Origin: Vibrio astriarenae
Lineage (GTDB): Bacteria; Pseudomonadota; Gammaproteobacteria; Enterobacterales; Vibrionaceae
Direction of reading: 5' to 3'
Assembly: GCF_010587385.1 (NCBI RefSeq)
Contig: NZ_CP047475.1
Location: 1,922,001-1,986,000, forward strand
Length of the DNA stretch: 64,000 nucleotides
The notes under the pieces are model-generated. The model did not search any database and was not told the DNA's origin. It saw only the letters and a program-made list of their open reading frames with translations. The translations under genes and the position numbers were made by a program. Numbering within the stretch: the first letter of the stretch is position 1; every line of letters starts with the position of its first letter. Shown one piece after another: positions 41,515 to 61,831 of this stretch.

Positions 41515-42150
41515 CTACTTATGGCGCTCTTTAAGTTTGTTGATCACATCGTCCATTGATAGACCTTGATCTTGAAGTAACACAAATAGGTGATAAATAA
41601 GATCAGCTGACTCACAAACTAACTCCGCCTTATCGCCCGACGTCGCCGCAAGCGCGACTTCAACGCCTTCTTCACCCACTTTCTGCGAAATACGCTTGGT
41701 GCCACGGGCATAAAGGCTCGCGGTGTAAGATGACTCTGGGTCGGCACTCTTGCGGGCAGCCAATAGCTGCTCAAGTTGATGAAGCCACACCATCTGAGAC
41801 TCTTCTTGCTTATCGCCATCCCAGCAGGTTGTAGTACCTGTATGGCAAGTTGGCCCAACCGGGTTCACTTTCACGAGCAGCGTATCTTGGTCACAATCAA
41901 GTGCAATGTTCTCTAATTGAAGGACATTGCCTGACGTTTCACCCTTAGTCCAAAGACGCTCTTTAGTACGAGAGAAAAAAGTAACATTACCGGTATCCGC
42001 CGTCTTGGCTAGCGCATCGCGGTTCATGTAACCCATCATCAGCACTTGACTAGATTGAAAGTCCTGAACGATCGCTGGTACCAAACCGTCCACTTTTTCC
42101 CAATTAATACGCTCTGCCAGTGCGCTTACTTCTGCCGCTGCAAAACTCAT
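41515..42150 (-). CDS. hisI: Bifunctional phosphoribosyl-AMP cyclohydrolase / phosphoribosyl-ATP pyrophosphatase (HisIE)
   Basis: Carries out steps 2 and 3 of histidine synthesis. The N-terminal HisI half shows [26 protein letters not shown] and the zinc cysteines in [25 protein letters not shown]. The C-terminal HisE half shows [20 protein letters not shown] and the metal glutamates. At 211 residues it is full length. Its ATG overlaps the hisF stop by 4 bases. It is the last gene of the detached hisF-hisI unit. Confidence 0.96.
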
Positions 42151-42920
42151 AGTCGCACCTCAATGTCCTGTTGTTTTAGATACTGTTTTAGCTCGCCAAT
42201 GTTGATGACTTGCTTATGGAATACCGATGCAGCTAGAGCCCCATCAACATTTGCCTTTTGATAAGCTTCAGCAAAGTGCGCCATTACACCCGCACCACCT
42301 GATGCAATAAGAGGTACATTGCACACTTCTCGAACCATATTAAGCTGATCAATGTCGTAACCGTTACGCACGCCATCTTGGTTCATCATATTCAGGACAA
42401 TTTCGCCTGCACCACGTTTTTGGACTTCTTGAACCCAATCACGAGTTTCCCACTGAGTGGCTTTCGTACGAGCTTCATCACCAGTAAATTGATAGACCTT
42501 GTATTTGCCAGTGTCTTTATCGTAATAGGAGTCGATACCCACCACGATACACTGCACACCAAACTTGTCAGCGAGGTCAGTAATCAGCTCAGGATTCGCC
42601 AGTGCAGGTGAATTGATTGACACTTTATCTGCACCGAACTCAAGAATTCTTGCAGCATCTTCAGCAGACTTGATACCGCCCGCGACACAAAAAGGAATAT
42701 CAATGACTTCCGCAACACGCGCTACCCAGCTTTTATCGACAACACGGCCGTCACTTGAGGCGGTAATATCATAAAAAACCAGCTCATCTGCGCCCTCTTC
42801 AGCGTAACGCTGGGCAAGAGGAACGATGTCACCAATAATTTCATGGTTGCGGAACTGAACGCCCTTTACAACTTGTCCATCGCGAACATCAAGGCAAGGA
42901 ATGATTCTTTTGGCAAGCAT
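42147..42920 (-). CDS. hisF: Imidazole glycerol phosphate synthase, cyclase subunit
   Basis: Cyclase half of the HisF-HisH complex; it uses ammonia from HisH to close the imidazole ring. The 257-residue (beta/alpha)8 barrel begins [14 protein letters not shown] with catalytic Asp11, and Asp near 130 is in VGIDSYYD. The start ATG 42920 is preceded by GGGAGG about ten bases upstream; a longer TTG-started frame from 42938 adds six residues. Normally it follows hisA directly; here a haem island lies in between. Confidence 0.95.
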
Positions 42921-42990
42921 TGTTACAACACCTCCCAATTACGCATTTGATTCAAACTAAACTCCATTTCAAAGGTGTTGCTACCTGCGT

Positions 42991-43013
42991 CAGGCAAACC
43001 TCATGTTTGCCTG
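42991..43013. repeat. Perfect 9-bp inverted repeat upstream of hisF
   Basis: CAGGCAAAC-CTCAT-GTTTGCCTG lies 71 bases before the hisF start, in the 191-base gap after the ABC exporter gene. No T run follows on either strand, so it is not a classical terminator. Confidence 0.65.
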
Positions 43014-43111
43014 CAGATATGACTTACCTTCAATTTACACATTTTCAGAGGTCAGTAAAGGGCTATTAGCGATTCCGTAAAGAATTAATCTAAGTTATTA
43101 CACCAATTTGT

Positions 43112-44911
43112 TTATGAAGCTTGCAGCTCCCCATATAAGGTTTGATATAACCCCTGTTGACCCACTAACTCACTGTGGCTGCCAGACTGCTTAACCTGCC
43201 CATCTTCAAGCACATAAATAACATCAGCTTGCCTTACTGCTGAGAGTCGATGAGCAACAATGAGTGTGGTTCGATTTGATAAAAAACGGCTCATGGCCTC
43301 ATGCAACGCGGCCTCAGTGGCAGTATCTAGTGCGGAAGTTGCTTCGTCGAGGATGACAAATTGAGGGTCACTCAACACCATTCGCGCAATAGCCAAACGC
43401 TGCCTTTGGCCCCCAGATAGGCGCACACCATTCCTACCCAATTCAGAGTCCAGACCATCACTCAGTTGTTCTACCACATCTTTGAGCTGAGCCACCTCAA
43501 GAGCCTGCCACAATTGCTGGTCAGCATAACGTCCGTCATTTAGCGTCAAATTAGCACGAAGCGTATCGTTAAAAATGACCGGCTGTTGAAGCACTACTGC
43601 CATATGCTCTCGCAACGACTCATAGGTGACATCTTCTATTCGTTCTCCATTGACAAGAATAGCGCCACTCCCCTTTCGGTAGATACCCATGAGCAGTTGA
43701 ATTAATGTCGATTTCCCCCCACCAGACGCACCGACAAGAGCAACACGTTTCCCCTTGGGAATCGTTAAATTCAGCTTATCAAGAACCTGTCGTTCATCGT
43801 CATATTGAAAGCTGACATCTTGTACTTGGATATCCAGAGGTTCACCTGTAACAAACGGTGAGACAGTAGGCATAGGTCGCTCTTCTTCTTCCAATGTCAG
43901 CAGGCTATTGAGTCTCTTCATTGCTGCTGAGGCACTAAACCAAGCGTATTGTACGCCCAACAGTTCCTGTACGGGTCCAAGCATGTACCAGAGATAGCCA
44001 AAAATCGCGAAGATCTGGCCAATCGAAAGATCACTGAATAACACCATGATCATCGCGGCAGCGCGGAAGATCTCAAACCCGATGAGAAACATCAAAAAGG
44101 ACATTCGATTAGCGGCATCTGACTGCCAAGCATAACGATCCGCATCGTGACGAATGTTCTCAGCGTCCATCTTTAGTGATTCTAAAAAGGCTAACTCTCG
44201 GTTCGAAGCTCGCAATTGATAAAGCCCCTCTAATATTTCCACTAACTTGTGCTGAAAACGTTCAAAAGATTGGTTTTCTCTTTTTTTGAGATGCTTGACT
44301 CGCTGCCCTAATTTACGCGACAAATAGACAATCACAGGGTTCATCGCCAGAATAAACAAGCCCAGACGCCACTCCATCCACAGAAGAATGATTGCAGTCC
44401 CAACGATGGTGAGTACACCAATAATAAGTCGACTCAGCGTGTCTCCGACGAACTTATCTATCGTTTCAATATCCGTCACTAGGTGGGAGCTGATCCCGCC
44501 ACTCCCTTTTTGCTCATATTGACGCATACTCACGCGTCCAAGCTTATCAAGCAACGATTGTCGAATATGGCAAGTAATACTCTTCGCAACCAGAGTAAAC
44601 TGGCGATTTTGTACAATATTAAGCAGTTGACTTACGCAACGCATGACAATGATCATCAGCAAACACAACACAATGTATGCCGTGGGCATTTGCCAAGTCT
44701 CTGGCAGTAACTTGTCCATCCACGCAACACCAACACTCGGTTGATTGAGCAAAACTTCATCAACCATTAAAGGCAGAAGAAGCGGAATGGGCACGCTGAT
44801 TAACGTAGCAACTATCGCTAAATAGTTGGCAATCACAAGCCGCTTTTTGTGCTTGATTGCCTGTTGATAGAGCCATTTGGGTGAAAGATAGCTTAAGCGC
44901 TCAGTGGTCAC
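43112..44911 (-). CDS. ABC exporter, fused permease and ATPase (MsbA/MdlB-like)
   Basis: A 599-residue half-transporter that would dimerise in the inner membrane. The N-terminal type I exporter domain (about 20-320) has six membrane segments. The C-terminal ATPase has Walker A GASGGGKST (about residues 393-401), signature LSGGQRQR (about 495), Walker B VILDEATSALD and the switch His in IVAHRLS. It lies between hutZ and hisF on the same strand. Its cargo is unknown; a link to haem or porphyrin handling rests only on position. Confidence 0.85.
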   Translation of the reverse strand: MTTERLSYLSPKWLYQQAIKHKKRLVIANYLAIVATLISVPIPLLLPLMVDEVLLNQPSVGVAWMDKLLPETWQMPTAYIVLCLLMIIVMRCVSQLLNIVQNRQFTLVAKSITCHIRQSLLDKLGRVSMRQYEQKGSGGISSHLVTDIETIDKFVGDTLSRLIIGVLTIVGTAIILLWMEWRLGLFILAMNPVIVYLSRKLGQRVKHLKKRENQSFERFQHKLVEILEGLYQLRASNRELAFLESLKMDAENIRHDADRYAWQSDAANRMSFLMFLIGFEIFRAAAMIMVLFSDLSIGQIFAIFGYLWYMLGPVQELLGVQYAWFSASAAMKRLNSLLTLEEEERPMPTVSPFVTGEPLDIQVQDVSFQYDDERQVLDKLNLTIPKGKRVALVGASGGGKSTLIQLLMGIYRKGSGAILVNGERIEDVTYESLREHMAVVLQQPVIFNDTLRANLTLNDGRYADQQLWQALEVAQLKDVVEQLSDGLDSELGRNGVRLSGGQRQRLAIARMVLSDPQFVILDEATSALDTATEAALHEAMSRFLSNRTTLIVAHRLSAVRQADVIYVLEDGQVKQSGSHSELVGQQGLYQTLYGELQAS

Positions 44912-44947
44912 GCCTTACTCCATTATTAATCTGAACTATAAACAACG

Positions 44948-44974
44948 AAGCCCCACACAAAAAGCATGGGGCTT
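44948..44974 (-). terminator. Hairpin after hutZ
   Basis: Arms AAGCCCCA and TGGGGCTT around an 11-base loop, 23 bases beyond the hutZ stop. The T tail is poor (CGTTGTTT), so read-through into the ABC gene is possible. Confidence 0.55.
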
Positions 44975-44996
44975 AGCAAATAAAAACAGGACTGAA

Positions 44997-45545
44997 TTAG
45001 TTAGCCGCTTGTTCTTTTTCACGCTTAACATGACCTTCGGTAAGGTGAACAACATCCACCATATCAAAGCCATTCACATCGAATGCCTGACCAAACCCTT
45101 TTACATAGCGACCTTTCTCAGGTTGGATTTGGTAAAGGCGGAAATCACCCAAATTGCTCAGATTATCGATGATTTCACCGAACTTCTGCGTTAATGCACT
45201 AACACCCTCACTCCACAAGTTCGTTTCTCTTTCGACAAATTCTGCCTTCGCTTCAAAAGAGAGTCGCTTACGTGCAAAGATATGTTTCGCTTGTGCCTCA
45301 TCTTCGATCAGCATGATAGACAGATTATTGTTCGCCTGTAGGTTCTTTCCATGAGGAGCAATATCACTCACTAAAATAAAAAAGCCGGATTCAGTGAAAG
45401 CAAACGGGACATAGCTGGCTGTTGGCAACTGATGACTATTGATTGTGGCCAACTGAAGTGTTTTGCAGTTGTCTCGAAACTCCTGCATTTCTGGTACAAG
45501 TCTAGATTGCAGTCGCTCTTGTTTGACTTCTGGGTTCATGTTCAA
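44997..45545 (-). CDS. hutZ: Haem-degrading protein HutZ
   Basis: Cytoplasmic enzyme that opens the haem ring with oxygen to release iron; split-barrel family with HugZ. The 182-residue protein has LQLATINSHQLPTASYVPFAF, ARKRLSFEAKAEFVER and the C-terminal DFRLYQIQPEKGRYVKGFGQAF. A late His in HLTEGHVK is placed where V. cholerae HutZ has its haem ligand. It starts 9 bases after hutX. It is the third gene of hutW-hutX-hutZ, under the Fur-like divergent region. Confidence 0.92.
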   Translation of the reverse strand: MNMNPEVKQERLQSRLVPEMQEFRDNCKTLQLATINSHQLPTASYVPFAFTESGFFILVSDIAPHGKNLQANNNLSIMLIEDEAQAKHIFARKRLSFEAKAEFVERETNLWSEGVSALTQKFGEIIDNLSNLGDFRLYQIQPEKGRYVKGFGQAFDVNGFDMVDVVHLTEGHVKREKEQAAN

Positions 45546-45554
45546 CGTCCTTGT

Positions 45555-46073
45555 TTACTTCGTCATTGATAGCTTTAACGTGTTAAACGCTTCAATTTGC
45601 TCTGGGATCAGATTACGTGCTTTATCGCGGCCTAAATACACACGGAACACGCAGTTGCCATCTTGATTGAAAAACGCAATATGATGCGTTTCTGTACCGT
45701 GAAAAAGCTTACTCACGAAAGCGATATCTGTAATCAAGTCTAGCTTCAAATGCCCATGTAAGCCCGCTTTGCCCATAATGTTGTAGTAACCATGTGCCGT
45801 TTTTCCTTTAGGGAAAGGGCCTTTGAACTCAAAAATTGAACCAAATGAGTTTGTGATCGTTGTTACGTTACCCCATTCAGGTAGCTGGCTAAGAATCAAC
45901 TCCGCATTCTCGCCTGCAATGGCCGTCACCATTTCTTCAGGCAGAGCTAAGCTCGCCTCTGCTTCACTCAGTGATAAACGAGTAGCAATATCAGTGACTG
46001 ATAAGCTTGGCTCAGCTTGACATAACTCAGCAACCTTTTGCTTCGCTTCTTCAAATGTACAAGTGGTGTACAT
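45555..46073 (-). CDS. hutX: Haem-transfer protein HutX
   Basis: Cytoplasmic haem carrier that hands haem to HutZ. The 172-residue protein belongs to the HutX/ChuX fold: FGSIFEFKGPFPKGKTAHGYYN, HLKLDLITDIAFVSKLFHGTETHHIAFFN and FRVYLGRDKARNLIPEQI are typical. It is separated from hutZ by 9 bases and from hutW by 81. In enteric chu operons the homologue ChuX plays a related part. Confidence 0.92.
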   Translation of the reverse strand: MYTTCTFEEAKQKVAELCQAEPSLSVTDIATRLSLSEAEASLALPEEMVTAIAGENAELILSQLPEWGNVTTITNSFGSIFEFKGPFPKGKTAHGYYNIMGKAGLHGHLKLDLITDIAFVSKLFHGTETHHIAFFNQDGNCVFRVYLGRDKARNLIPEQIEAFNTLKLSMTK

Positions 46074-46154
46074 AGACTTCTCCTTAATTCACGCTGTCTG
46101 CGTGTGTTTTTGTTCTCTATTTGTTTAGCCTAGACTTGGCTGACTAACCGTGTT

Positions 46155-47525
46155 TTAAGCAGCTATATGAGACTGATTCAAGCTCGATGCTGTATTAATC
46201 AAATTCTGTGCGAGGTTTACGTTCCAAAACTCACCCGCTAAAGTCAAAGCGATATAATCGCCGTCAACTTTAACTAAGCCATTTGTTTGCCACTTTTCGA
46301 AAAGAGGCATTGCTGCAGAGTAGATATCCCATCCCGCAGTGTGGTTCAAAACCTGCTTAGACAGGACGCCCCGGTCAAATGCTGCACGTATACAACTCGT
46401 GATTTCTCGATTTGCATCTGCAAGCATCAACATCGCCACAGGATATTGATCCGCTTCAATTGCTTGAATGTAATCCTCCATGTTTCGAGTTTGCATCATT
46501 TGCAGACCGGAAACATTGCCACCAGCGCCAGCACCTATTGGTAAGACTTCGGCCGTGGTTTTTGCAAGACTGTTGTAGATACTTCGTTCTCGATTACCTC
46601 TTGCCCAATGGTTGCAACTAAGTCGTCTTTGATAGCGCTTAGCCATAAAGTTCACACCCATCTCAAACATTGTCGCTTTGGTTGCAGTGTTGGCTGGCGC
46701 GGGCAGTTTGCCCTGCTCAACCATCTGCTGCATCGGTAATCCCTTCATATCAATCAGTTGATAGAGATCGACACCATCTGCACCGGACTCGAGATACAAC
46801 TCTAGGTCTTTCTGCCAGATATCGAGTGTCTGATGAGGAAGTCCGAACAGTAGGTCAATCACGACAGGTGCGCTGTTATAGGCGACCATATTTTGAATTC
46901 GCTCCAATGCCACATCGCCATCGTCAAGGCGTTTTGCGGCGCGACGAACCTGAGTATTAAAGCTCTGAATACCAAAAGAGAAACGACTGAACCCACCTTC
47001 CAGTGCTGATTCAAATTTGTCTTCACCAAATCGATTAATACGTCCTTCCAACGTCACTTCACAATCCGGTGTCAAAGGGAAATGCTGGTGAATCATTTGC
47101 CCTAATTGTTGCAACTGAGCACCACTCAGGTCAGTGGGGGTTCCTCCACCGACATACACAGCATGAAACGGAGCAGACTGTGTCCATGCCTCGGCAGATT
47201 TACGCTTTATCTCTGTTTTCAACGCTTCAAAGTAGGCGTCCATGAGCTTAGTGCTTGATGCATATTGGAAGAAATTACAGTAAGTGCAACGCACGCGACA
47301 AAATGGAATGTGGATATACAGGCAGCGCGGTGAACGTTTGTCTACCGACTCACCTAATGCTTGCGTCAAACGTGACTGCGTTTCCTCTTTCGCGATAGGA
47401 CGAGCCGCACTACCAGAGTGTGCACCGCCCTTTCGCTTAAAGGCATAACGGAGAGGATCTGGCGTATGCTGGCCAGTCAGCTCTAGATTTTCTAAATCAA
47501 TCATGCTGGATAATTCTTTGATCAT
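46155..47525 (-). CDS. hutW: Radical SAM haem-utilisation protein HutW (ChuW-like)
   Basis: A radical SAM methyltransferase of the ChuW type, expected to open haem without oxygen and yield anaerobilin. The iron-sulfur motif is HIPFCRVRCTYCNF with Cys76, Cys80 and Cys83. GGGTPTDLSGAQL and the HemN-like GIQSFNTQVRRAAKR follow, then the C-terminal winged region. A second ATG at 47504 is the other possible start; neither has a good ribosome-binding site. It is divergent from hutB across a region with Fur-like sites. Confidence 0.9.
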   Translation of the reverse strand: MIKELSSMIDLENLELTGQHTPDPLRYAFKRKGGAHSGSAARPIAKEETQSRLTQALGESVDKRSPRCLYIHIPFCRVRCTYCNFFQYASSTKLMDAYFEALKTEIKRKSAEAWTQSAPFHAVYVGGGTPTDLSGAQLQQLGQMIHQHFPLTPDCEVTLEGRINRFGEDKFESALEGGFSRFSFGIQSFNTQVRRAAKRLDDGDVALERIQNMVAYNSAPVVIDLLFGLPHQTLDIWQKDLELYLESGADGVDLYQLIDMKGLPMQQMVEQGKLPAPANTATKATMFEMGVNFMAKRYQRRLSCNHWARGNRERSIYNSLAKTTAEVLPIGAGAGGNVSGLQMMQTRNMEDYIQAIEADQYPVAMLMLADANREITSCIRAAFDRGVLSKQVLNHTAGWDIYSAAMPLFEKWQTNGLVKVDGDYIALTLAGEFWNVNLAQNLINTASSLNQSHIAA

Positions 47526-47721
47526 AACGGCTTACCACAAGCGTGTGAGCCTCTTCGATTTGCGATTATCATACTTATCGCAAATGCAAATGCAATTGAT
47601 AATTGATCTTATTTGTATTTCATGGATAATCAGCGCTAACGAATTACGATTTCCGGAGCCCCACATCAGTTCCTTGCTCGACCCTGACTGTCGGATAGAA
47701 GTGAATTAGGGATAGATTGAA
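47526..47721. promoter_or_regulatory. Divergent Fur-like promoter region, hutWXZ and hutBCD
   Basis: TGATAATTGATCTTA at 47597-47611 matches the left half of the Fur consensus (TGATAATNATTATCA) fully and the right half partly. Just before it, GCGATTATCATACTTATCGC (47562-47581) is an imperfect inverted repeat. The 15-base string TGCAATTGATAATTG at 47591 recurs exactly upstream of the haem receptor. Confidence 0.65.
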
Positions 47722-48576
47722 ATGAAAAAGACTTTCTTAGCCATTACCACTGCATTATGGACTTTATCGAATAACAGTTATGCATCAGAACCCCCGAGAA
47801 TTATTAGCGCTGGATCAACGGTGACCGAGCTCATTTATGCCTTGGGCGCTGAAAATACACTCGTTGCAGTAGACTCAACCAGTAAGCACTTTGTTGAGGG
47901 CTCTGACATCCCGCAAGTGGGTTATCACCGTCAACTGTCGACCGAGGGCCTGCTTGCGCTCGCGCCCGACATGATTATTGGCTCACCAGAAATGGGACCA
48001 GACACGACAATTAACTCACTATCAAGCGCTGGGGTGAAAATTGAAAAAGTCTCTACCGGAATCGATAGAGCCGCACTTAATCAGCGCATTGACCAAGTGG
48101 CAGCTCTGACAGGGACTGAAACTAAAGCGGTAGAGTTAAAACAACAGATTAATGCACGCTTAGATAAACTCGAAACACGCCCTCTTGAGCAAGCACCTAA
48201 AGTCATTTTTGTCATGCTCAGCGAAGGCCGACCAATCACCGTCGCAGGTAAAGGTACCCCTGTTGACGCTGTGATTGAGCTTGCAGGTGCTGAAAATCCC
48301 GCTTCCACTCAGTTTGACTCTTATAAGCCAATGTCGATTGAGTCTGTACTAGAGCTACAACCTGACTACATTCTAATTTCAGACCGCACCCTGGGCATTA
48401 TGGGGGGCATCGACACTATTATGGCAAAAATGCCTCTACTCGCCGCGACGCCTGCGGGTATTAACCAACAGATCATTCCAATTCCTGGTCGTGCGATCAT
48501 TGGTGGTTTCGGATTGGAGAGCCTAGAGCTCTCTGAAGACTTACATCAGCAGTTTGAACTGGGGATCGCGCAATAA
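47722..48576 (+). CDS. hutB: Periplasmic haem-binding protein HutB
   Basis: Substrate-binding protein that carries haem from the periplasm to the HutCD importer. The 284-residue protein has a signal peptide (about 1-21, ending SYA). It has the periplasmic binding fold of the ChuT/HutB group: RIISAGSTVTELIYALGAENTLVAVDSTS, VGYHRQLSTEGLLALAPDMIIGS, VFVMLSEGRPITVAGKGTPVDAVIELAGAENPA (quoted in parts). AGGGATAG lies before the ATG. Its stop and the hutC start overlap as TAATG. Confidence 0.93.
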   Translation: MKKTFLAITTALWTLSNNSYASEPPRIISAGSTVTELIYALGAENTLVAVDSTSKHFVEGSDIPQVGYHRQLSTEGLLALAPDMIIGSPEMGPDTTINSLSSAGVKIEKVSTGIDRAALNQRIDQVAALTGTETKAVELKQQINARLDKLETRPLEQAPKVIFVMLSEGRPITVAGKGTPVDAVIELAGAENPASTQFDSYKPMSIESVLELQPDYILISDRTLGIMGGIDTIMAKMPLLAATPAGINQQIIPIPGRAIIGGFGLESLELSEDLHQQFELGIAQ

Positions 48577-49619
48577 TGAATATTGCACCAAGCCGTCTTC
48601 CTTTATCTGGAATTTTAATTGTGGGATCGATTGCTCTGTACTGTGCTGTCATCACCTCAATAGCGATGGGGCCAATGGACATTGGCTTTAAAGACAGTAT
48701 GCGCGCACTATTACCCATCGAGACCGATCTACCACAACATATTTTGATGGTTATCCAGCAGGTGCGTTTACCGCGAACTCTACTCTGTCTAGTGGTGGGC
48801 GGCTTACTGGCCATTTGCGGTACCGTCATGCAAGGCTTGTTTAGAAATCCCCTGGCAGACCCGGGCATTATTGGAGTCTCTGCTGGTGCCTCACTCGGAG
48901 CTGCGGTAGCGATCGTCTTGTTCGGCTCTCTCGCCGCATCCTATCCGGTGTTACTACTGTTCGGCACTGTTCCGTTATTTGCCTTCCTTGGCGGGGCTAT
49001 CTCTACTGTCTTGGTGTACAAGCTCGGTACAAGCTCAACGGGTACTTCCGTTGCTATGATGCTACTTGCTGGTGTGGCTATTGGTGCACTCGCCGGCGCA
49101 GGCTTAGGATTGATGAACTATTATGCCGATGATCAAGCACTGCGAGACCTCTCTTTGTGGAGTATGGGATCACTGGCTGGCGCAGATTGGCAGGGTATTT
49201 TACTTGGGTTTATCGCTCTCGTGACGCTAACCGCTCTATTTTATCGCGATGCAGACAAACTTAATGCTCTACTCCTCGGTGAGGCTGAAGCCAATCATAT
49301 GGGTATTGATGTGCAGCGTTTGAAGAAACGCCTGATTCTTCTTACCGCTGCGGGTGTTGGGATCACCGTCTCTTTAGCGGGCATGATTGGCTTTATCGGC
49401 CTCATCGTTCCTCATATTGGACGCATGATCGGAGGACCGAATCACCGTCGTCTCATTCCTCTGTCTATGATTCTCGGGGCTTTATTGCTCTTGGTGGCCG
49501 ATATGCTCGCACGTACAGTCATTGCGCCACTCGATATGCCAGTCGGTATCGTTACCGCGTTACTGGGAGCCCCATTCTTCATTTGGTTATTGATTCAACA
49601 AAAAGGAAAGCTTGCGTGA
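48576..49619 (+). CDS. hutC: Haem ABC transporter permease HutC
   Basis: Inner-membrane permease of the FecCD/BtuC type with about ten membrane segments, which passes haem into the cytoplasm. Family blocks: QVRLPRTLLCLVVGGLLAICGTVMQGLFRNPLADPGIIGVSAGAS (about 63-107, quoted in parts) and the coupling region GFIGLIVPHIGRMIGGPNHRRLIPLS. The length is 347 residues. It overlaps hutB at its start and hutD at its end, so the three are translationally coupled. Confidence 0.94.
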   Translation: MNIAPSRLPLSGILIVGSIALYCAVITSIAMGPMDIGFKDSMRALLPIETDLPQHILMVIQQVRLPRTLLCLVVGGLLAICGTVMQGLFRNPLADPGIIGVSAGASLGAAVAIVLFGSLAASYPVLLLFGTVPLFAFLGGAISTVLVYKLGTSSTGTSVAMMLLAGVAIGALAGAGLGLMNYYADDQALRDLSLWSMGSLAGADWQGILLGFIALVTLTALFYRDADKLNALLLGEAEANHMGIDVQRLKKRLILLTAAGVGITVSLAGMIGFIGLIVPHIGRMIGGPNHRRLIPLSMILGALLLLVADMLARTVIAPLDMPVGIVTALLGAPFFIWLLIQQKGKLA

Positions 49620-50383
49620 GTGCCATCGACTTCTCAGGGCTTAGCTTAACGTTAGGTAATAAAACTATCCTTAAACAGGCGTCTGCATCGATAAAAGCAG
49701 GTGAATTTACGATTTTACTCGGTCCTAATGGCACCGGTAAAAGTAGTCTTCTAAAACTGATTAGCCGAGAGTGGAAGACTAAGGGAGACGTCTCCTATTT
49801 TGGCCGAGCTCTGAATGAATGGAATCCTGCGCACCTCGCTAAACATTTAGGTATATTGCCACAGCACAGCAACCTTACTTTTGCCTTCACAGCAAAAGAG
49901 GTGGTTGAGTTAGGTGGGCTGAATCTTCACTCCTGTCAAAAGGGGATTGAAAAGATAGCACATCAAAATATGGAGCAAACCGACGTCATCCATCTCGCTG
50001 ACAGGCAATTTCCCTCTCTATCTGGTGGAGAAAAACAGCGCGTTCACCTCGCGCGAGTGTTAACTCAACTCTCCCAATGCCAAGACAAATGCGCACTCCT
50101 GCTCGATGAACCGACTTCCGCGCTCGACTTAGGCCATCAACACAAAACGCTTCAGCTAGCCAAACGCATGGCAGACAAAGGAGCGGCTGTGGTTGCAGTG
50201 ATTCACGACCTCAACCTAGCCGCTCAATATGGCGATAGGCTCATTGTGTTAAACCGAGGAGAAATTGCCGCAGATGGCACACCAGAACAAGTGCTAACCC
50301 CCGATCTTATCCAGTCCGTTTATCAATGGTCTGTTGATGTAATCACCCACCCTACTGGGCACTACCCAGTCGTAATCAGTTAA
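49616..50383 (+). CDS. hutD: Haem ABC transporter ATPase HutD
   Basis: ATPase that drives haem import by HutBCD. The 255-residue protein has Walker A GPNGTGKSS near 36-44, signature LSGGEKQRVHLARVL, Walker B LLLDEPTSALD and the switch region VIHDLNLAAQYGD. The chosen start GTG 49616 overlaps the hutC stop (GTGA), with AAAGGAAAG upstream. An earlier ATG at 49583 lies within hutC and adds 11 residues outside the family pattern. Confidence 0.94.
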   Translation: MSAIDFSGLSLTLGNKTILKQASASIKAGEFTILLGPNGTGKSSLLKLISREWKTKGDVSYFGRALNEWNPAHLAKHLGILPQHSNLTFAFTAKEVVELGGLNLHSCQKGIEKIAHQNMEQTDVIHLADRQFPSLSGGEKQRVHLARVLTQLSQCQDKCALLLDEPTSALDLGHQHKTLQLAKRMADKGAAVVAVIHDLNLAAQYGDRLIVLNRGEIAADGTPEQVLTPDLIQSVYQWSVDVITHPTGHYPVVIS

Positions 50384-50401
50384 TTTCCTTGGAGTTAGAG
50401 G

Positions 50402-51043
50402 ATGAATAAAGTTGTCGTATGGGGCGCTGGTAGCGGCCTTGGGCTCGCTATCGCTGAGTATTACAAGAGCCAAGGTTTAAGCGTTTATGGCGTTTCACGT
50501 GCCCCAGAAAAGTCTGAAAGAGCGCTCGTTGTTTGTGAGGAAACGTATGCCTGCGATGCAACCAACAAAGACCTAGTTGAAGCGACAGTAGCAAAACTAC
50601 CCAAAGATGCATGGATAATTTCAACGATGGGGAGTTTCAAAGCAGACACACCCGTTGACTACATTGGACATCGTTATTTGATTGATGCTCTAGAACAAAA
50701 TTCTTGTGCTCGTTTTCTACTCGTTACATCACTCGGTTGCGGAGACTCATGGCAATATCTTTCCGAAGCCGCGAAAAATGGCTTCGGCAATGCGGTACGA
50801 GAAAAGTCTCTCGCAGAGGCTTGGCTGCAGTCTAGTAAACTCGATTACACTATTTTAAGGCCTGGAGGACTCATCAACGGGTCGGTGACACAAACAGGCA
50901 TGCTATCTCAAGTCCAAGAAATTCATGGCGTTATCCATCGTATGGAGGTAGCCCGCCTAACTCATGAATTACTGAAATCAGACAAAACAAGTCAGCAGAT
51001 ATTCCACTGCGTTGACCCAAGTGTCTCCAAAATTAAACGCTGA
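50402..51043 (+). CDS. NAD(P)-binding reductase, ChuY-like (possible anaerobilin/biliverdin reductase)
   Basis: A 213-residue atypical short-chain dehydrogenase with a single Rossmann domain: KVVVWGAGSGLGLAIAEYY at about 3-20 binds the nucleotide, and LLVTSLGCGDSW and LDYTILRPGGLING resemble the biliverdin-beta/flavin reductase group. In enteric chu operons the ChuY protein of this type reduces anaerobilin, the product of ChuW. Here it lies 18 bases after hutD and near hutW (ChuW type), so a matching role is inferred. It could also be a general NAD(P)-dependent epimerase-like protein. TTGGAGTTAGAGG precedes the ATG. Confidence 0.72.
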   Translation: MNKVVVWGAGSGLGLAIAEYYKSQGLSVYGVSRAPEKSERALVVCEETYACDATNKDLVEATVAKLPKDAWIISTMGSFKADTPVDYIGHRYLIDALEQNSCARFLLVTSLGCGDSWQYLSEAAKNGFGNAVREKSLAEAWLQSSKLDYTILRPGGLINGSVTQTGMLSQVQEIHGVIHRMEVARLTHELLKSDKTSQQIFHCVDPSVSKIKR

Positions 51044-51096
51044 AATAAACAAATTTCATCAAAACAATGAGTTCGCATGATTATTTTGTTTGCAAT

Positions 51097-51111
51097 TGAT
51101 AATTGTTATCA
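51097..51111. promoter_or_regulatory. Strong Fur box upstream of the haem receptor gene
   Basis: TGATAATTGTTATCA matches the 7-1-7 Fur consensus TGATAATNATTATCA at 13 of 14 informative positions. It lies 50 bases before the GTG start of the receptor. Confidence 0.8.
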
Positions 51112-51160
51112 ATATCATGCGCATTATTATTTAAGTACGGACGTTAAATAGGTAGTTGTT

Positions 51161-53128
51161 GTGCGCCCAAGTAAAATTTGCTCTTTTATAGCCATCGCTC
51201 TGATAAGCCAAGCCTCTTATGCTAACCAGTCTCCTGACGACATAATGGTCATTACAGGAACTCGAACTGAACGTAGTCTTCTAGACACTCCTGTAAGAAC
51301 TGAAGTCATTACTTCAGAGCAGATTGATAGAATGCATGCCAAAGATCTTACTGAAGCTCTTAGTAATATCCCTGGACTAACGCTTCGATCTATCCATGGT
51401 AAGACGGGAACAGAAGTCTCCATGCAGGGCTATGACGGTGAGAGAGTGTTAATACTCATTGATGGAATGCCCATTTCACCATCGACGGGTTCTCGCGTCG
51501 ATTTGGATCAAGTCGGTGTCGTTAACATCAAGCAAATCGAAATTGTGCGTGGTGCTGTGTCTGCTTTGTATGGCAGTGAGGCAATGGGTGGTGTTATCAA
51601 TGTCATCACGACGACACCTGATACTCCTTTTGGCTTTAAAGTGACGGCTGACGGTGGCTCATATGGAGACCGTGACGCCTCAGACCGATTCTCGAACGAC
51701 GGCCACTTTAGCCTGATCACTCATGGCGCCACCGACGATTTTTATGTGCAGTTCGCCGCCGATCATCGCGATTTAGGCGGCAGTAAAATTGATGCTGACT
51801 CCCCTACTTTCAGCAATGAACGAGGCACAAAAACCAACCTATCACTCACTGCTGGGTATAAGTTCGACAATGGAGGACACTTGCGTGTGACTCCTTCTTA
51901 CTACTCCAGCGACGTAGACACCTCATACTCAGAATTTGAGCCGGGTGTTGGCGATGTTTTAAAAGGTAATGAAGAACAAGCCACCCGTACCAACTTAAAC
52001 ATTAACTACAACGGACCAATCAACGACAACTTTTATCTCACTGCTTACGCTATCTCTGAGCGCTACTCGGACGAGACGCAAGTGAGAAACCTTAGTAATA
52101 ATGCCACCAGCAAGCACCGAGAAAGCCAAGTCGACTTTAACAAAGCTGAAGCACAAGTAGACTTCCACATTGGTGACAATCACCTAATCACTGCAGGCTT
52201 GGTTGGATACTCTGGCTCTCTAGAGCAAACAAAAGATGGTGTATCTGATCTCGACCCAATAAATCCAACTCAGGATAACGTTGAGTTCTATCTCCAAGAC
52301 GATTTCTACCTCACCGATGAACTCGAGTTACTGCCGGGTTTCAGAGCTCAATATGACTCAGACTTCGGTGGGCATTTTGCTCCCAAAGTGAACTTAATGT
52401 ATCGCCCTACTGCGCTCGATGAGTACAAGGTTCGTGTTCGAGCTGGTGCCGGAACAGGTTATCGCGTGCCTGACCTAAAAGAGCGTTACTTTGTGTTTGA
52501 CCACAGTGAAGTCGGCTACATGGTTTTGGGTAACCCTGACTTAGAACCAGAAACATCCACCAGTTTCCAAGTTGGTGTTGATGCTGTTTTCAATCAGTAT
52601 CTCTCAGGTGATATCAACGTATATCGTAACGATACAAAGAACCTCATTACCTCCGACTACGTTGGAGAAGAGGCTGGCTTAGCTATTTACCAATATGAAA
52701 ATATGGACAAGAGCTTCTCACAAGGTGTCGACCTGATGATGAACGTTGCTCGCACCAATGGGTGGAGTGGCTATGCTGGCTATAGCTACCTAAACGCGGA
52801 AGACAAAACAACAGGCAATAAACTCGTCAAACTGCCTGACCATCAATTCAAATTCAATATTAACTACCATTGGTCCCTTATCAACACTGAGTTTTCATTG
52901 TTTGGCCGCTACGAGACAGAATCCTATGCAGACAGTGACAACCTCATGGAGTCTCCAAGCCACTCCGTCTTCGACTTTATGGTAAACAGCTGGATTACTG
53001 ACCAATTCAAAGTGTTTGGTGGTGTCGACAACCTAACAGACACGATTCAAGACTCATTAAGCAGTGGTAATGACTACCGCCCTTCAACTGGACGATTCGT
53101 CTACCTCGGTATGACTTACGAATACTAA
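51161..53128 (+). CDS. TonB-dependent outer-membrane haem receptor
   Basis: Outer-membrane barrel of 655 residues that binds haem or haemoproteins at the surface and imports haem using TonB energy. A signal peptide (about 1-21, ending SYA) is followed by a TonB-box-like IMVITGT. The plug domain has GYDGERVLILIDGMP and EIVRGAVSALYGSEAMGGVINVIT. The FRAP/NPDL region of haem receptors reads YRVPDLKERYF...GNPDLEPE, with a His (FDHSEVGY) between, as in HmuR/HemR. The C terminus LGMTYEY ends in an aromatic residue. It starts with GTG, under a strong Fur box. HutA-type substrate details are unknown. Confidence 0.87.
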   Translation: MRPSKICSFIAIALISQASYANQSPDDIMVITGTRTERSLLDTPVRTEVITSEQIDRMHAKDLTEALSNIPGLTLRSIHGKTGTEVSMQGYDGERVLILIDGMPISPSTGSRVDLDQVGVVNIKQIEIVRGAVSALYGSEAMGGVINVITTTPDTPFGFKVTADGGSYGDRDASDRFSNDGHFSLITHGATDDFYVQFAADHRDLGGSKIDADSPTFSNERGTKTNLSLTAGYKFDNGGHLRVTPSYYSSDVDTSYSEFEPGVGDVLKGNEEQATRTNLNINYNGPINDNFYLTAYAISERYSDETQVRNLSNNATSKHRESQVDFNKAEAQVDFHIGDNHLITAGLVGYSGSLEQTKDGVSDLDPINPTQDNVEFYLQDDFYLTDELELLPGFRAQYDSDFGGHFAPKVNLMYRPTALDEYKVRVRAGAGTGYRVPDLKERYFVFDHSEVGYMVLGNPDLEPETSTSFQVGVDAVFNQYLSGDINVYRNDTKNLITSDYVGEEAGLAIYQYENMDKSFSQGVDLMMNVARTNGWSGYAGYSYLNAEDKTTGNKLVKLPDHQFKFNINYHWSLINTEFSLFGRYETESYADSDNLMESPSHSVFDFMVNSWITDQFKVFGGVDNLTDTIQDSLSSGNDYRPSTGRFVYLGMTYEY

Positions 53129-53154
53129 AAATATCAAAAAGGAGAGGATTAACT

Positions 53155-54243
53155 ATGTCTAACTATAAACTTTGGCTACCTATTGCTTTATCAGGTATCG
53201 CGTTAGCGGGATGCAACAGCTCTGGTGGTTCTAGTAACGAAGGAGGTGGCGAAACTCCATCGAATGCAAAGGAGATTCATATCGACTCCTCTTCTGGTGC
53301 ACAAACCAAAGTCGATTTAGATTCAGGCACCTCTGTTCAAGATGATAACTGGCATGTGTCTTACCAAAAATATGTAGGGTTTGCCTTGAATGGAGGGGGG
53401 TCAGGTAGCGGCAATGTTGCAGGCTGTGTAGCCGCAGAGTTCGAGGCTCTATTTGACGATGAAGGTAATGCTGTTGCAGATGAATTCATGAAACTCACTG
53501 GCAGTAACACGCTCGAGTCATTCGAAAGCGTGACGATGGACAGCTGTGACAGTTTCGAATCGGATTCCTTAGAAACAAGAATCGAATTTGATGACTGGGT
53601 GCATTACGACTTCCTGACTCATCAAGTGAGTGCAAAAGAAGGTAATGCCTTCTTAATAAAACATTCTGATGGTTCAACGATGTCCAGATTTAGCGTCACT
53701 TCATTAAACAATGACAAAGATACGACGATCAATGTTGAGCAGTGGAATAATGGATGGGAAACGGCTCGTGACATTGATTTCAACTTTGCAGACCAAAGAG
53801 TGTATATCGACCTTGATACTGATAACCCTAATGCGACTGAAACGGATGAATGGGATATTAGCTTTATCGTGGATGGCCGCAACTACCTTATTCAGATTAA
53901 CGGCGGAGCTTCGGGTGACGCCATCGGTGCTGTGGCGGATGTAGAAGCTGATATTGTTTCTGGTGCGGCCTTCGACCCGACAGACGAAGAAGTTGTGAGC
54001 CCTTATCATTGGGGGGCAGATGCTACTACCGGTATTATGGATGGACCTGGTAACTATGGTGCGTTGCATTATGGCGTCGATGGTGGTCATGATATGTGGC
54101 CGACATTTACGACCTACCTGCTGCAACAAGAGATTGCTGGCGGTGTCTACCAATACTACAAAGTACAAGTTATCAGCAACACAGGCCCTGAAGGCGGTTT
54201 AGCCTCTGGTAACCTGGTATATCGTTACGAAGTTCTAAACTAA
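53155..54243 (+). CDS. HmuY-family haem-binding lipoprotein with two modules
   Basis: A 362-residue lipoprotein: signal ending LAGC with lipidated Cys20, then a Ser/Gly-rich linker. Two related HmuY-like modules are visible. The first (about 44-90) reads KVDLDSGTS..DDNWHVSYQKYVGFALNGGGSGSG; the second (about 216-256) reads VYIDLDTDN..DEWDISFIVDGRNYLIQINGGASGD. In Bacteroidetes the HmuY lipoprotein takes haem and gives it to receptor HmuR; here the gene follows the receptor by 26 bases with AAGGAGAGG upstream, so they are likely one Fur-controlled unit. The haem ligands cannot be named from sequence. Confidence 0.78.
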   Translation: MSNYKLWLPIALSGIALAGCNSSGGSSNEGGGETPSNAKEIHIDSSSGAQTKVDLDSGTSVQDDNWHVSYQKYVGFALNGGGSGSGNVAGCVAAEFEALFDDEGNAVADEFMKLTGSNTLESFESVTMDSCDSFESDSLETRIEFDDWVHYDFLTHQVSAKEGNAFLIKHSDGSTMSRFSVTSLNNDKDTTINVEQWNNGWETARDIDFNFADQRVYIDLDTDNPNATETDEWDISFIVDGRNYLIQINGGASGDAIGAVADVEADIVSGAAFDPTDEEVVSPYHWGADATTGIMDGPGNYGALHYGVDGGHDMWPTFTTYLLQQEIAGGVYQYYKVQVISNTGPEGGLASGNLVYRYEVLN

Positions 54244-54256
54244 GCTATGAATGCAA

Positions 54257-54286
54257 TGAAGGAGGCCAAGTTGGCCTCCTTTTTAG
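54257..54286 (+). terminator. Terminator of the receptor-HmuY unit
   Basis: Arms GGAGGCCAA and TTGGCCTCC with almost no loop excess, then TTTTTAGTTT. Confidence 0.88.
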
Positions 54287-54384
54287 TTTCCGGCGACTCG
54301 CTTTTCAACCTACATCTAGATAACCATACAATTACTGTCGATTTCGGTTAGGCTATGATCATCACCGTTTAATCGACTTTATAC

Positions 54385-55077
54385 ATGAAATACGAATCTT
54401 TTGATGATATCTACTCGCGCGCTTGCCAACGTAAAGGTGGTGTTGAAGCGCTGGAGTCATTACTCTCTGAGCCTCTATCCAACAAACAACTGGCACTCAT
54501 CCCTGACGACCGATTTCTTGCCCAGTTCAGCATGTCAATTTTCCAGTCCGGCTTTGTATGGCGAGTCATACGCAATAAGTGGCCAGCATTTGAGGAAGTA
54601 TTTTGGGAATTCAATATTGAAAAGCTGCTGATGATGCCAGCCGATATGCTTGAGAGAAAAAGCCAAGATGTGCGCATCGTACGTAACTTCACTAAGGTGA
54701 AAACTATCCCAGCCAACGCTCAGATGATTCGCAACATTCAGTTAGAACATGGCAGCTTTGCCAAATTTATTGCCAATTGGCCCGAGAGCGACATCGTTGG
54801 CTTGTGGCTGTATTTAAAGAAGCATGGACAACGTTTGGGAGGTAACACTGGCCCCTATGCTTTGCGCCAACTAGGTAAAGACACATTCATATTAAGTAGC
54901 GATGTAGAAAGCTACTTGAGAGCGCACAGTATCATCGAGGGTGGCCTTTACAGTAAACGTAGCCTGGACGCGATTCAGCGCGCATTTAATCACTGGCAAA
55001 GCGAGTCTGGTCGCAGTTTAACCGAACTTTCGCGGTTGATTGCCTATGGTGTTGGCGAAAATACAGTGCAGGCATAG
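54385..55077 (+). CDS. Tag-like DNA-3-methyladenine glycosylase I family protein
   Basis: A 230-residue protein of the helix-hairpin-helix DNA glycosylase superfamily, resembling 3-methyladenine glycosylase I. Visible are FSMSIFQSGFVWRVIRNKWPAFEEVFWEF (about 53-81, quoted in part), a middle helix set with NAQMIRNI, and the LKKHGQRLGGNTGPYALRQLGKDTFILSSDV region with an Asp at the family position. The zinc-binding N- and C-termini of E. coli Tag are not obvious, so it is a divergent form. It stands alone after the haem unit. Confidence 0.7.
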   Translation: MKYESFDDIYSRACQRKGGVEALESLLSEPLSNKQLALIPDDRFLAQFSMSIFQSGFVWRVIRNKWPAFEEVFWEFNIEKLLMMPADMLERKSQDVRIVRNFTKVKTIPANAQMIRNIQLEHGSFAKFIANWPESDIVGLWLYLKKHGQRLGGNTGPYALRQLGKDTFILSSDVESYLRAHSIIEGGLYSKRSLDAIQRAFNHWQSESGRSLTELSRLIAYGVGENTVQA

Positions 55078-55209
55078 TGCCATAGTGCGGTTGAAAAAGA
55101 GAATGAATGGTGTAATACCTCCTTACTCATTTTCATTGAAAATCAGTGCCGACTGTACATAATATCTGCAACCGAACCATCTGTTCGCCACACAAAGGAA
55201 TGCACTGCT

Positions 55210-55647
55210 GTGAAAGTAACTGTTAGCCAAAAAAATGAAGTGATTAAACAAGGACAAGAGATCCGCTACCAAGTTTTTACTCTGGAGCAAAGTATCCCAA
55301 CTGAACTTGACCTTGATGGCTTGGATAACCAATCCTTTCATGCCCTCGTTACTGACAATGACTCCCCCATTGCGACAGCCAGACTGACTGTACATGAGGA
55401 TTGTTCTGCAACCATGGCAAGAGTTGCTGTCGATAAGGCTTATCGAGGTAAGGGCATTGCATCGAAAGTCGTTACTGCTCTTCAACAGCACGCTAAAAAT
55501 ATCGGCGTCTCTTCGATTGAGATTCATGCACATGAATACCTAAGAGCCTATTACGAGAAGCTAGGGTTTGAATTTATCGAAGAAGTTGAGATCGTTGGGG
55601 AGCATCAGCTCATCGCGATGGAGCAAAAGCTGCTTGTTACCGAGTGA
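55210..55647 (+). CDS. GNAT family N-acetyltransferase
   Basis: A 145-residue acetyl-CoA-dependent transferase. The acetyl-CoA loop is ARVAVDKAYRGKGIASKVV (about 77-95), with the R/Q-x-x-G-x-G/A form as RGKGIA, followed by the helix HAKNIGVSSIEIHAHEYLRAYYEKLGFEFIEE. The start is GTG 55210 with AAAGGAAT upstream; no earlier in-frame ATG is present. It converges on the hisA terminator. Substrate unknown. Confidence 0.87.
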   Translation: MKVTVSQKNEVIKQGQEIRYQVFTLEQSIPTELDLDGLDNQSFHALVTDNDSPIATARLTVHEDCSATMARVAVDKAYRGKGIASKVVTALQQHAKNIGVSSIEIHAHEYLRAYYEKLGFEFIEEVEIVGEHQLIAMEQKLLVTE

Positions 55648-55670
55648 TTGGAAACCGAATGATTGGAAAT

Positions 55671-55706
55671 AAAAAAGTGGAATTTGATAGCATCATCAAA
55701 TCCCAC
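55671..55706 (-). terminator. Strong terminator after hisA
   Basis: On the minus strand GTGG-ATTTGAT pairs with ATCAAAT-CCAC and is followed by TTTTTTATTT. It lies 35 bases after the hisA stop and should end the hisLGDCBHA transcript before the island. Confidence 0.85.
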
Positions 55707-55740
55707 AGAAATATTCGTTTCTAAAAACTAGAATAGTGAT

Positions 55741-57109
<1,369 letters not shown>

Positions 57110-57121
57110 AACCGTATTTCC

Positions 57122-58195
57122 TTACAGTACGCCTTTACTACTTGGCAGCTCATTCCCTTCTACTTTCACCGCTTGGCGTAGTGTGCGGCCAAAGGCTTTA
57201 AATAGACTTTCAATAATGTGGTGATCATTATCACCATTAGAGGATAGGTGCAGCGTACAAGCAAGTGTGTCTGTCAGTGAGCGGAAGAAGTGGACTACCA
57301 TTTCCGTAGAAAGGTCACCGACCTGCTCGCGACTAAATTCCGCTTCAAACTTCAGGTATGGGCGGCCAGACAGATCTAAACCACACTGAGCCAAACACTC
57401 ATCCATCGGCAAGCTAAAACCAAAACGGCCAATACCACGTTTGTCACCAAGTGCATCTTTAAGCGCTTGACCTAATGCCAATGCGGTATCTTCGATTGTG
57501 TGGTGATCATCAATGTGCAAATCACCCTCAACTTGGCATTTCATTTGGAAACCGCCGTGTGTCGCAATTTGATCAAGCATATGATCGAAAAAGCCCAAGC
57601 CTGTCGAGATCTCATTGCCGCCTTGCTCATCCAGGTTCACGTATACCTTAATATCTGTTTCTTTGGTGATGCGAACGACTTCAGCAACGCGCGCTTTCAC
57701 CGTCAGATCTTTGAGGATTTTTGGCCAACCCATCGTTTCTGGGTTGTATTGAATACCACGGATCGCCATATTTTCAGCCAACTGTAGATCGGTTTCACGG
57801 TCACCAATCACTACAGAGTTCTGGAAATCAACTTTGCCACCTTGAAGGTACTCTTTTACTAAACCTAGCTTTGGCTTACGACAAGAGCAGTTATCTTCAT
57901 CGAAGTGTGGACAGATCAATACATCATCAAACTTCACGCCTTGAGATTCAAAAATCTCCATCATCATGTTGTGTGGTGCATCAAAGTCAGCCTGTGGATA
58001 GCTATCTGTGCCTAAGCCGTCCTGGTTTGTCACCATCACCAAGCGATAACCAGCATCTTGCAAGGCCAGCAAACTTGGAATAACAAAAGGCTCTAGCTTT
58101 AACTTGTCTAAACGGTCAACTTGGAAATCAACTGGAGGCTCAACAATTAAGGTGCCATCACGGTCGATAAAAAGAATTTTTTGTTGCTTGCTCAC
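57122..58195 (-). CDS. hisB: Bifunctional histidinol-phosphatase / imidazoleglycerol-phosphate dehydratase
   Basis: Two enzymes in one 357-residue chain. The N-terminal HAD phosphatase has FIDRDGTLI (nucleophile Asp in DRDGT) and zinc-loop cysteines [17 protein letters not shown]. The C-terminal dehydratase has the histidine-rich [29 protein letters not shown] and [16 protein letters not shown] manganese motifs. The start is GTG 58195 with AAGGAAG upstream. A structured 93-base gap separates it from hisC. Confidence 0.97.
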
Positions 58196-58221
58196 GCGAA
58201 CTTCCTTATTTCATTTTGTGT

Positions 58222-60624
<2,403 letters not shown>

Positions 60625-60628
60625 CGCC

Positions 60629-61525
60629 TTACCCCATCATCTTCTCAATTGGTAGCACAAGGATTGAGCTCGCACCCAGCTCTTTAAGCTGCTCCATCGT
60701 TTCCCAGAACAGGTTCTCTGTGCTCACTAGGTGTACAGCCACTTTCTCTTTATCAGAAGCAAGCGGAAGAACAGTTGGGTCTTCTGCACCAGGTAGTAAG
60801 GCTTTCACCTGCTCAAGCTGAGCAACAGGTGCGTGTAGCATGATGTACTTTGATTCTTTCGCTTGCTGAACACCTTGCATACGAGTAAGCAGCTTCTCAA
60901 TCAGTGCTAGGCGCTCTGCATCGAACTCACCTTTACGTTGAATCAAGGTGGCTTTAGATTGGAAGATGATCTCAGCTTCTTTTAGGCCATTCGCTTCAAG
61001 TGTTGCGCCCGTTGATACCAGATCAGCAATGGCATCAGCAAGGCCTGCACGTGGCGCGACTTCTACAGAACCTGTGAGCATACACGTTGAGAATGGGATG
61101 CCCTGCTCATCCATATAAGCTTTAAGCAATTGAGGGTAAGTGGTTGCAATACGTTTGCCCGCCAAGTCTTGTGGGCCGTTGTATTCTTGGTCTTTATTGA
61201 TCGCTATAGACAGACGACAACCACCAAAATCTAAGCGGCGCAGTGGAACAAACTCACATGGCTCACCGAGTGCTTTGCGATCTAAACGTACTTCTTCCAG
61301 TTCGTTCTCACCAATAAAGCCAAGGTCTACAACACCATCCATAATCAGGCCTGGAATATCATCGTCACGAACCAACAACAAATCAATTGGCATGTTCAGT
61401 GAGTGGACAACAAGGCGCTCGCCCATGATGTTGAACTTAACACCACACTTTTTGAGAAGATCTTGACACTCTTTGCTTAGGCGCCCTTTCTTTTGAATCG
61501 CAATTCTTAAACGTTGTGTAGACAT
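60629..61525 (-). CDS. hisG: ATP phosphoribosyltransferase (long form)
   Basis: First and feedback-inhibited enzyme of histidine synthesis, joining ATP and PRPP. The 298-residue long form has [14 protein letters not shown] at the start, [12 protein letters not shown], the PRPP loop region [16 protein letters not shown] near 185, and a C-terminal regulatory domain of about 75 residues that binds histidine. It is the first structural gene after the his leader and attenuator. Confidence 0.97.
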
Positions 61526-61570: not shown

Positions 61571-61613
61571 AAAAGCAAAAAACCCTCGAGAGATGTTGGT
61601 CTCCCGAGGGTTG
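61571..61613 (-). terminator. his operon attenuator terminator
   Basis: On the minus strand, AACCCTCGGGAGA pairs with TCTCTCGAGGGTT and is followed by TTTTGCTTTT. A competing hairpin at 61642-61665 (ACCCGGGAG and CTCCCGGT arms) lies upstream, as in classical his attenuation. Confidence 0.88.
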
Positions 61614-61687
61614 GTAATCTTGTTAGTATGAGATTCAAACCACCGGGAGTAACCTGTCTCCCGGGTACGCGTACATCGCCCGAAAGA

Positions 61688-61735: not shown

Positions 61736-61769
61736 AACTAAAGTTTCTTTCCTTAACACTATGTTCAAC

Positions 61770-61798: not shown

Positions 61799-61831
61799 CA
61801 CTTTTAATGTGATTTTTTGCAACTTTTTTAA

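Follow-up and report, generated by a model that had tools for sequence, protein, structure and literature searches.

By the account in PMC4701971, integrative elements would favour places where an insertion costs the host little, for example the ends of genes at operon borders. As described by Durand et al. (2021; PMC8409611), the dusA-specific integrative mobilizable elements of Vibrio, such as IMEVchUSA3, enter a conserved gene at its 5′ end; elements of this type are related to SGI1 and are mobilized by IncC plasmids. It is against this background that we consider an island of haem-uptake genes lying within the histidine operon of Vibrio astriarenae, between hisA and hisF, in a stretch of 64,000 nucleotides (contig NZ_CP047475.1, positions 1,922,001 to 1,986,000 of the forward strand) that will be termed the window, all coordinates being counted from its first letter. 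The split of this operon is derived, the island is shared with a second species, and the overlap of hisA with hisF appears, from sequence comparisons, to be the site of a family of integrative elements of which the haem island would probably be an immobilised descendant.

The elements of this family resemble the dusA elements in their insertion at a 5′ end, with the start of the target gene restored (PMC8409611), and differ from them in their target, an overlap inside an operon and not dusA. With the integrative and conjugative elements of streptococci, as PMC4701971 describes them, they share site-specific tyrosine integrases and direct repeats at the ends, some of the streptococcal elements also standing at the 5′ ends of genes; they differ in that the his site is in mid-operon. 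An island of Escherichia coli HS, PAI-HS-hisF, is likewise named for the his operon, yet its insertion feature is hisI and its cargo is of the capsule and lipopolysaccharide kind, and the passage of PMC7545054 that concerns it shows no insertion between hisA and hisF. A literature search, with most subscription papers outside its coverage, found no report of such an insertion among the titles listed. The new part is the insertion at an overlap within an operon, with a leader open reading frame (ORF) at the rebuilt gene, restoration of a target at its 5′ end being already known.

A derived split of the histidine operon

The initial annotation, made from the letters of the sequence alone, had placed hisGDCBHA and hisFI on the same strand, 12.8 kb apart, and this was borne out by profile matches and coordinates. 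Both halves of the operon are on the minus strand, and hisA is separated from hisF by 12.8 kb; hisA, hisH, hisB, hisC and hisD were named by NCBIfam cut-offs that they passed, and hisG by the Pfam HisG model, also passed.

41515 to 42150, minus strand: hisIE, in the second half of the split operon (NF002747, equivalog, 308 bits)
42147 to 42920, minus strand: hisF (TIGR00735, above cut-off, 375 bits), with its ATG start codon at 42920
55741 to 56475, minus strand: hisA, the final gene of the first half (TIGR00007, above cut-off)
56495 to 61525, minus strand: hisH, hisB, hisC, hisD and hisG by model matches, hisG being at 60629 to 61525
61574 to 61712, minus strand: histidine operon leader RNA, preceding hisG (RF00514, 76.8 bits)

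A short ORF at 61688 to 61822, which overlaps the leader RNA, contains five consecutive histidines.

It had further been stated that hisA and hisF adjoin or overlap in most gammaproteobacteria, and that an ancestral operon was interrupted here; both statements agree with what was found in related genomes (G numbers denote genomes, G000 being that of the window, L numbers fetched loci and P numbers related proteins). When the DNA upstream of hisF was fetched from 40 relatives, the best HisF scorers with a few skipped, hisA was seen to run into hisF in 39, with G138 as the sole exception, the overlap at an intact junction typically reading ATG TTG GCA AAG CGA ATA A. Of the 227 genomes of the genus searched with a hisA-hisF probe of 1.5 kb, 204 had a single match, 19 had two and 4 had none; the probe rows among the matches listed all cover both genes, and some lower-scoring single matches may cover one gene, a possible example being G310, which is 80% complete. 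The 19 genomes with two matches comprise 13 that are split, 3 with a gap of about 45 bases and 3 (G233, G025 and G322) that are intact with an extra match. The 13 splits make eight lineages, counted by eye and without formal reconstruction on the tree of his genes and the contents of the inserts: G000 with G248; G138; G100; G200; G324; G122 with G128 and G203; G161; and G196 with G295 and G110. G100 and G138 share a branch with G092 at a support of 0.198, and their inserts differ.

Could the split order have been ancestral in Vibrio, the joined order being secondary? Several branches of the tree do hold split loci, and no positive evidence for such a history was found. The split lineages branch from among joined ones and their inserts differ, while the great majority of the fetched and probed genomes (39/40 and 204/227) behave as joined, so that this very improbable explanation was rejected on the junction survey and the his-gene tree. 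An error of assembly at hisA or hisF, for which no support was found, is more improbable still. The genome of the window consists of two contigs, in which hisF DNA matches once, and the same junctions recur, with diverged sequence, in a second species (G248), on which ground misassembly was rejected.

In this second species the position and orientation of the island are those seen in the window, and so is the order of its genes: tag, a TonB receptor, the reductase, hutDCB, hutWXZ and the ABC exporter. As a sister species carries the same island, the latter is not misassembled; it is a real, derived insertion common to two species. Nine island proteins are 70-89% identical between G000 and G248, against 95-98% for five his proteins (some of these comparisons being of partial length); the receptor gives a weak match of partial length, and neither the HmuY-like protein nor the GNAT protein of the window has a match in the G248 island. 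The two genomes are sisters on the his-gene tree with a support of 1.0, and the intact G035 joins them with a weak support of 0.54.

Other arrangements were met in the course of the survey. In G196, G295 and G110 (L055-L060) hisA and hisF are on different contigs, among different neighbours, apparently as a result of relocation and not of insertion. In G253 and G257 (L066, L067), as in G306, which is outside the tree, the overlap is gone and about 45 bases separate the genes; G253 and G257 are sisters of the G122 clade, which has no integrase, and their gap may be either a scar or an initial step. In G322 the hisA-hisF pair is present twice in full, the copies lying about 25 kb from each other (G322:C1:2077237-2078725 and 2102486-2103981).

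An integrase family at the hisA/hisF overlap

Eight Vibrio lineages are cut at the hisA/hisF overlap, which is thus a site of repeated insertion. In G138, where the two genes are 11 kb apart, the first protein on the hisA side, of 485 amino acids, has an arm-type DNA-binding domain and a weak match to phage integrases. A profile of this family found full-length members in 4 of 329 Vibrionaceae genomes (G138, G100, G200 and G324), in each case between hisA and hisF and starting 195-236 bases past hisA; weak partial matches were found in G219 and G244. Among 394 genomes of the order, two that belong to other families, G434 and G607, have members directly after hisGDCBHA, some 270-280 bases past hisA, that of G434 being in two pieces with a stop, and weaker matches in G432 and G458 lie in regions without his genes. 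All six strong matches adjoin hisA. Judged from this association, a specific integrase family uses the hisA/hisF site in at least three families of the order. No family integrase was found in a sample of 185 genomes of the class, a result that does not exclude spread beyond the order. A query of named genome contigs and viral contigs returned none, which shows little, since integrases of this kind do exist in named genomes: P0001, from Vibrio atlanticus, is identical to the G138 integrase, and relatives occur in V. crassostreae, V. lentus, V. diabolicus and V. parahaemolyticus.

Relaxase domains are present in all four Vibrio elements, and the G138 insert also holds an insertion sequence, a Mob_Pre protein and defence-like genes; these integrative elements are probably mobilizable. 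Their cargo includes genes resembling phage defence, namely BREX proteins in G100 (L062:1264-9653) and, in G138 (L041:1459-6558), a PDC-M12 candidate defence pair with a SIR2-like protein. The 1.7 kb insert of G161 has a single ORF of 404 amino acids (L054:1668-2882), without a Pfam match at 0.01, and a leader ORF before hisF.

That a dedicated integrase family should use a site in mid-operon contrasts with the view that elements choose sites of low cost. The eight split lineages of Vibrio amount to replicated natural experiments on operon breakage, with which one can ask how the supply of HisF is matched to HisH, what replaces attenuation, and how haem-uptake or phage-defence genes and other such mobile cargo become permanent. 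For those who annotate genomes, the hisA-hisF junction is a place in which to seek unrecognised islands.

Rebuilt junctions

Exact repeats of the hisF start are present at both junctions in four of the six integrase elements (G100, G200, G324 and G607), where 10-23 identical bases stand both after hisA and at hisF; similar, imperfect repeats are present in the other two. In G138 the longest exact repeat has 8 bases, inside a stretch of 29 that agrees at 25 (by eye); in G434 similar copies were seen by eye, the best match of the script being a chance AT-rich word. Repeats of this kind at both junctions imply that hisA keeps its own end and that the start of hisF comes from the side of the element, and a new hisF start coming from the element end was indeed seen in the sequences of the integrase elements except G100. 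Any copy beside hisA is diverged in G000, and G248 has GAATAATTC after hisA (by eye). At 12 of the 13 split loci in Vibrio the rebuilt start of hisF encodes M/V-LAKRII, G100 having lost the usual start codon. Codon 5 of hisF, which is CGA in all 39 intact loci, is AGA in 11 split loci and CGA in 2, a shift that could be explained also by a relaxing of the overlap after the split.

A motif is common to the hisF ends of G000, G248, G138 and G324.

42959 to 42969, minus strand: the 11-mer AAATGGAGTTT, upstream of hisF

The fetched DNA, 1.336 Mb with eight duplicate loci left out, contains four copies of this 11-mer, each just upstream of a split hisF. The window has one match, where 0.10 would be expected, and the 11-mer is not found in G100 or G200. 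When the 120 bases upstream of hisF were compared, with z values taken against 200 block shuffles, the end of G122, which has no integrase, proved strongly similar to that of the integrase-bearing G324 (z 24.6). It follows that an element does at times lose its integrase and keep its end, a course of events that the likeness of these two ends supports well for one clade, that of G122, and that we propose for the window.

Expression of hisFI

The regions that flank the island contain several signals of possible regulatory value.

42923 to 42955, minus strand: short leader ORF of 10 codons with a TTG start, ending 2 bases before the hisF start (putative function)
42927 to 43111, minus strand: intergenic region between the ABC exporter gene and hisF, with parts conserved in G248 by alignment; candidate promoter region
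55677 to 55706, minus strand: terminator-like hairpin and T-run after hisA (pattern scan and folding, z -3.5)

The initial annotation had reasoned that hisF and hisH, the products of which form one complex, are no longer coupled in their expression. As a terminator-like hairpin follows hisA, uncoupling is likely. Matches to the terminator pattern are near chance in the region (16 found, 12.3 expected), and hairpins with T-runs also fold after hisA in G248, G122 and G196, the one of G248 not being listed by the pattern scan of L048. The leader ORF differs from that of G248 at 3 of 33 bases. With this ORF and a local promoter, hisFI would be expressed independently; no promoter pattern was scored upstream of hisF, and transcription of the ABC gene may read through. 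Between that gene and the leader of hisF, at about 42984 to 43010, an imperfect palindrome that lacks a T-run was seen by eye; it is absent from the list of a 14-base repeat search and is not conserved in G248.

A leader ORF with a GGAG-type site, ending at or just inside the hisF start, is present at 8 of the 13 split Vibrio loci, in six of the eight lineages. The background is 21 of 503 free gene starts (about 4%) and 710 of 20000 random positions, figures that are descriptive, the test having been framed after the loci were viewed. In G434 a short ORF overlaps the hisF start without a GGAG site (by eye), and G607 was outside this scoring.

These features lead us to suggest, tentatively and with more doubt than conviction, that the elements specialised on an overlapping gene pair and carry an operon-repair cassette, made up of a promoter, a ribosome-binding site and a leader ORF that stops at the start of hisF. 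The leader ORF would replace the translational coupling normally given by hisA. Repeated decay of such elements would leave permanent cargo, the haem island included, and would have freed hisFI from control by the his leader.

Origin of the haem island

We consider it fairly probable that the haem island is an immobilised descendant of the family of elements that targets hisA/hisF. The overlap would be the attachment site for elements with a tyrosine integrase next to hisA. On insertion a copy of the hisF start would stay by hisA, the end of which would remain intact, while the far end of the element would give hisF a new start and upstream signals. The ancestor shared by G000 and G248 would have acquired the haem island as such an element, or as an insert into one; afterwards the integrase would have been lost, the island fixed and some of the cargo exchanged, with the terminator present after hisA. 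The arrival of this island by means of that integrase is what we infer from the common site and the hisF end, and we speak of a likely descendant of the proposed family, not of a member, because the family integrase is missing (no match in G000 at 1e-12).

A number of observations weigh against this history. The similarity of the G000 hisF end is modest beyond a core of 11 to 13 bases (z 4.4 to G138, 3.9 to G324), and this end is unlike those of G200 (z -0.8) and G100 (z -0.5); the 11-mer is in part a ribosome-binding site, so that function could favour the motif. The GGAG-type leader ORF is missing at 5 of the 13 split Vibrio loci, namely G128, where the site is weakened, and G100, G196, G110 and G295, the last with a weaker AAGG site alone. 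That no integrase or tRNA marks the edges, as had been noticed at the outset, held in so far as the window has no tRNA and a permissive tblastn found in the island no relic of an integrase beyond chance level; the same search on six loci without an integrase gave matches at chance level alone (best E 0.14). There is no relaxase or mobilization gene among the scanned proteins of the island, and no repeat is common to its two ends, nor to those of the inserts of G248 and G122, end-to-end repeats being found in the elements of G138 and G324. Finally, hisA and hisF are apart in G196, G295 and G110 without an element-type end, which means that other routes to a split exist.

Alternatively, the island might have reached its place without the help of an integrase, by rearrangement or illegitimate recombination, for example if a hut locus of the second chromosome had moved here; the shared site would be a coincidence, or would reflect a general tolerance of a break at this point. 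An island without an integrase or end repeats fits such an account, as do the unrelated neighbourhoods, devoid of element features, in which hisA and hisF stand in G196, G295 and G110. So does the distribution of hutW, found in 12 of 14 tested genomes: G000 has a single copy, within the island, as expected of a move. G248 likewise has hutW in its copy of the island; the remaining 10 genomes carry it on a contig different from that of hisF. Yet the 11-mer is at the hisF end, the site is identical to that of all six strong family integrases, and the HutW protein of G000 is closer to those of G122 and G324 (63-68% identical, the G324 match being partial) than to the other eight tested (51-55%), which, in this small sample of 14 genomes, argues for horizontal gain of the cargo. 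We consider rearrangement unlikely, and descent from an integrative element the better account. The base composition does not bear on the matter: the proposal that GC and codon bias might betray the island came to nothing, GC and GC3 (GC at third codon positions) being unremarkable along the window, without an island signature.

Gene content of the island

In Vibrio the hut locus has the order hutWXZ / tonB-exbBD-hutBCD. The island carries both hutWXZ and hutBCD, with HutW, HutX, HutZ and hutD recognised by models and hutB and hutC by context. The gene list of the initial annotation is broadly right; the identities of hutB, hutC and HmuY and the haem specificity of the receptor were the part without a directly passed model.

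43112 to 44911, minus strand: ABC exporter with membrane and ATPase domains (profile matches), also adjoining the hut loci of G122 and G324
44997 to 45545, minus strand: hutZ (TIGR04110, equivalog, above cut-off)
45555 to 46073, minus strand: hutX (TIGR04108, equivalog, above cut-off)
46155 to 47525, minus strand: hutW (TIGR04107, equivalog, above cut-off), the sole match in the genome
47722 to 48576, plus strand: hutB-like haem-binding protein of the importer (NCBIfam matches below cut-off, context)
48576 to 49619, plus strand: hutC-like permease (NCBIfam matches below cut-off, context)
49583 to 50383, plus strand: hutD ATPase (NF010068, a haem ABC ATPase model, above cut-off)
50402 to 51043, plus strand: NAD(P)-binding reductase (PF13460)
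51098 to 51116, plus strand: Fur-box-like site upstream of the receptor, 16/19 against the consensus
51161 to 53128, plus strand: TonB-dependent receptor (PF00593 and PF07715 passed)
53155 to 54243, plus strand: HmuY-family protein, named via its relatives P0034 and P0035, which match PF14064
54385 to 55077, plus strand: Tag-domain protein (PF03352 passed, NCBIfam tag below cut-off), also in the G248 island
55210 to 55647, plus strand: GNAT acetyltransferase (PF00583), absent from the G248 island

As in the hut loci of Vibrio, hutWXZ diverges from hutBCD, and the ABC exporter is found also in G122 and G324; unlike them, the island is inside the his operon, has no genes resembling tonB, exbB and exbD, and holds the reductase, HmuY, Tag and GNAT genes. 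In the hut loci of six relatives (G122, G324, G198, G185, G138 and G045) TonB-, ExbB- and ExbD-like genes, named by eye and position, stand between hutB and hutW in every case. Of tonB1-exbB1-exbD1 beside hutBCD there is no trace in the island of the window, and the ExbB of G324, used as a query, has no match in G000 at 1e-10; haem import in G000 may use another TonB system. The substrate of the receptor is probably haem: against the haem-receptor model TIGR01785 it scores 195 bits, under the cut-off of 317.

The HmuY-like protein has no direct Pfam match, and P0034, which is 77% identical to it, matches PF14064 at 7.8e-12. A query with this protein found no relative in named genome contigs, which says little, as the search may omit near records. 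Within the genus a protein of the HmuY type was found at 1e-10 in 3 of 227 genomes, G000 counted. In the other two, G290 and G275 (loci L100 and L101), the gene likewise follows a related receptor, and that of G290 is broken in two, a transposase-like ORF standing between the pieces.

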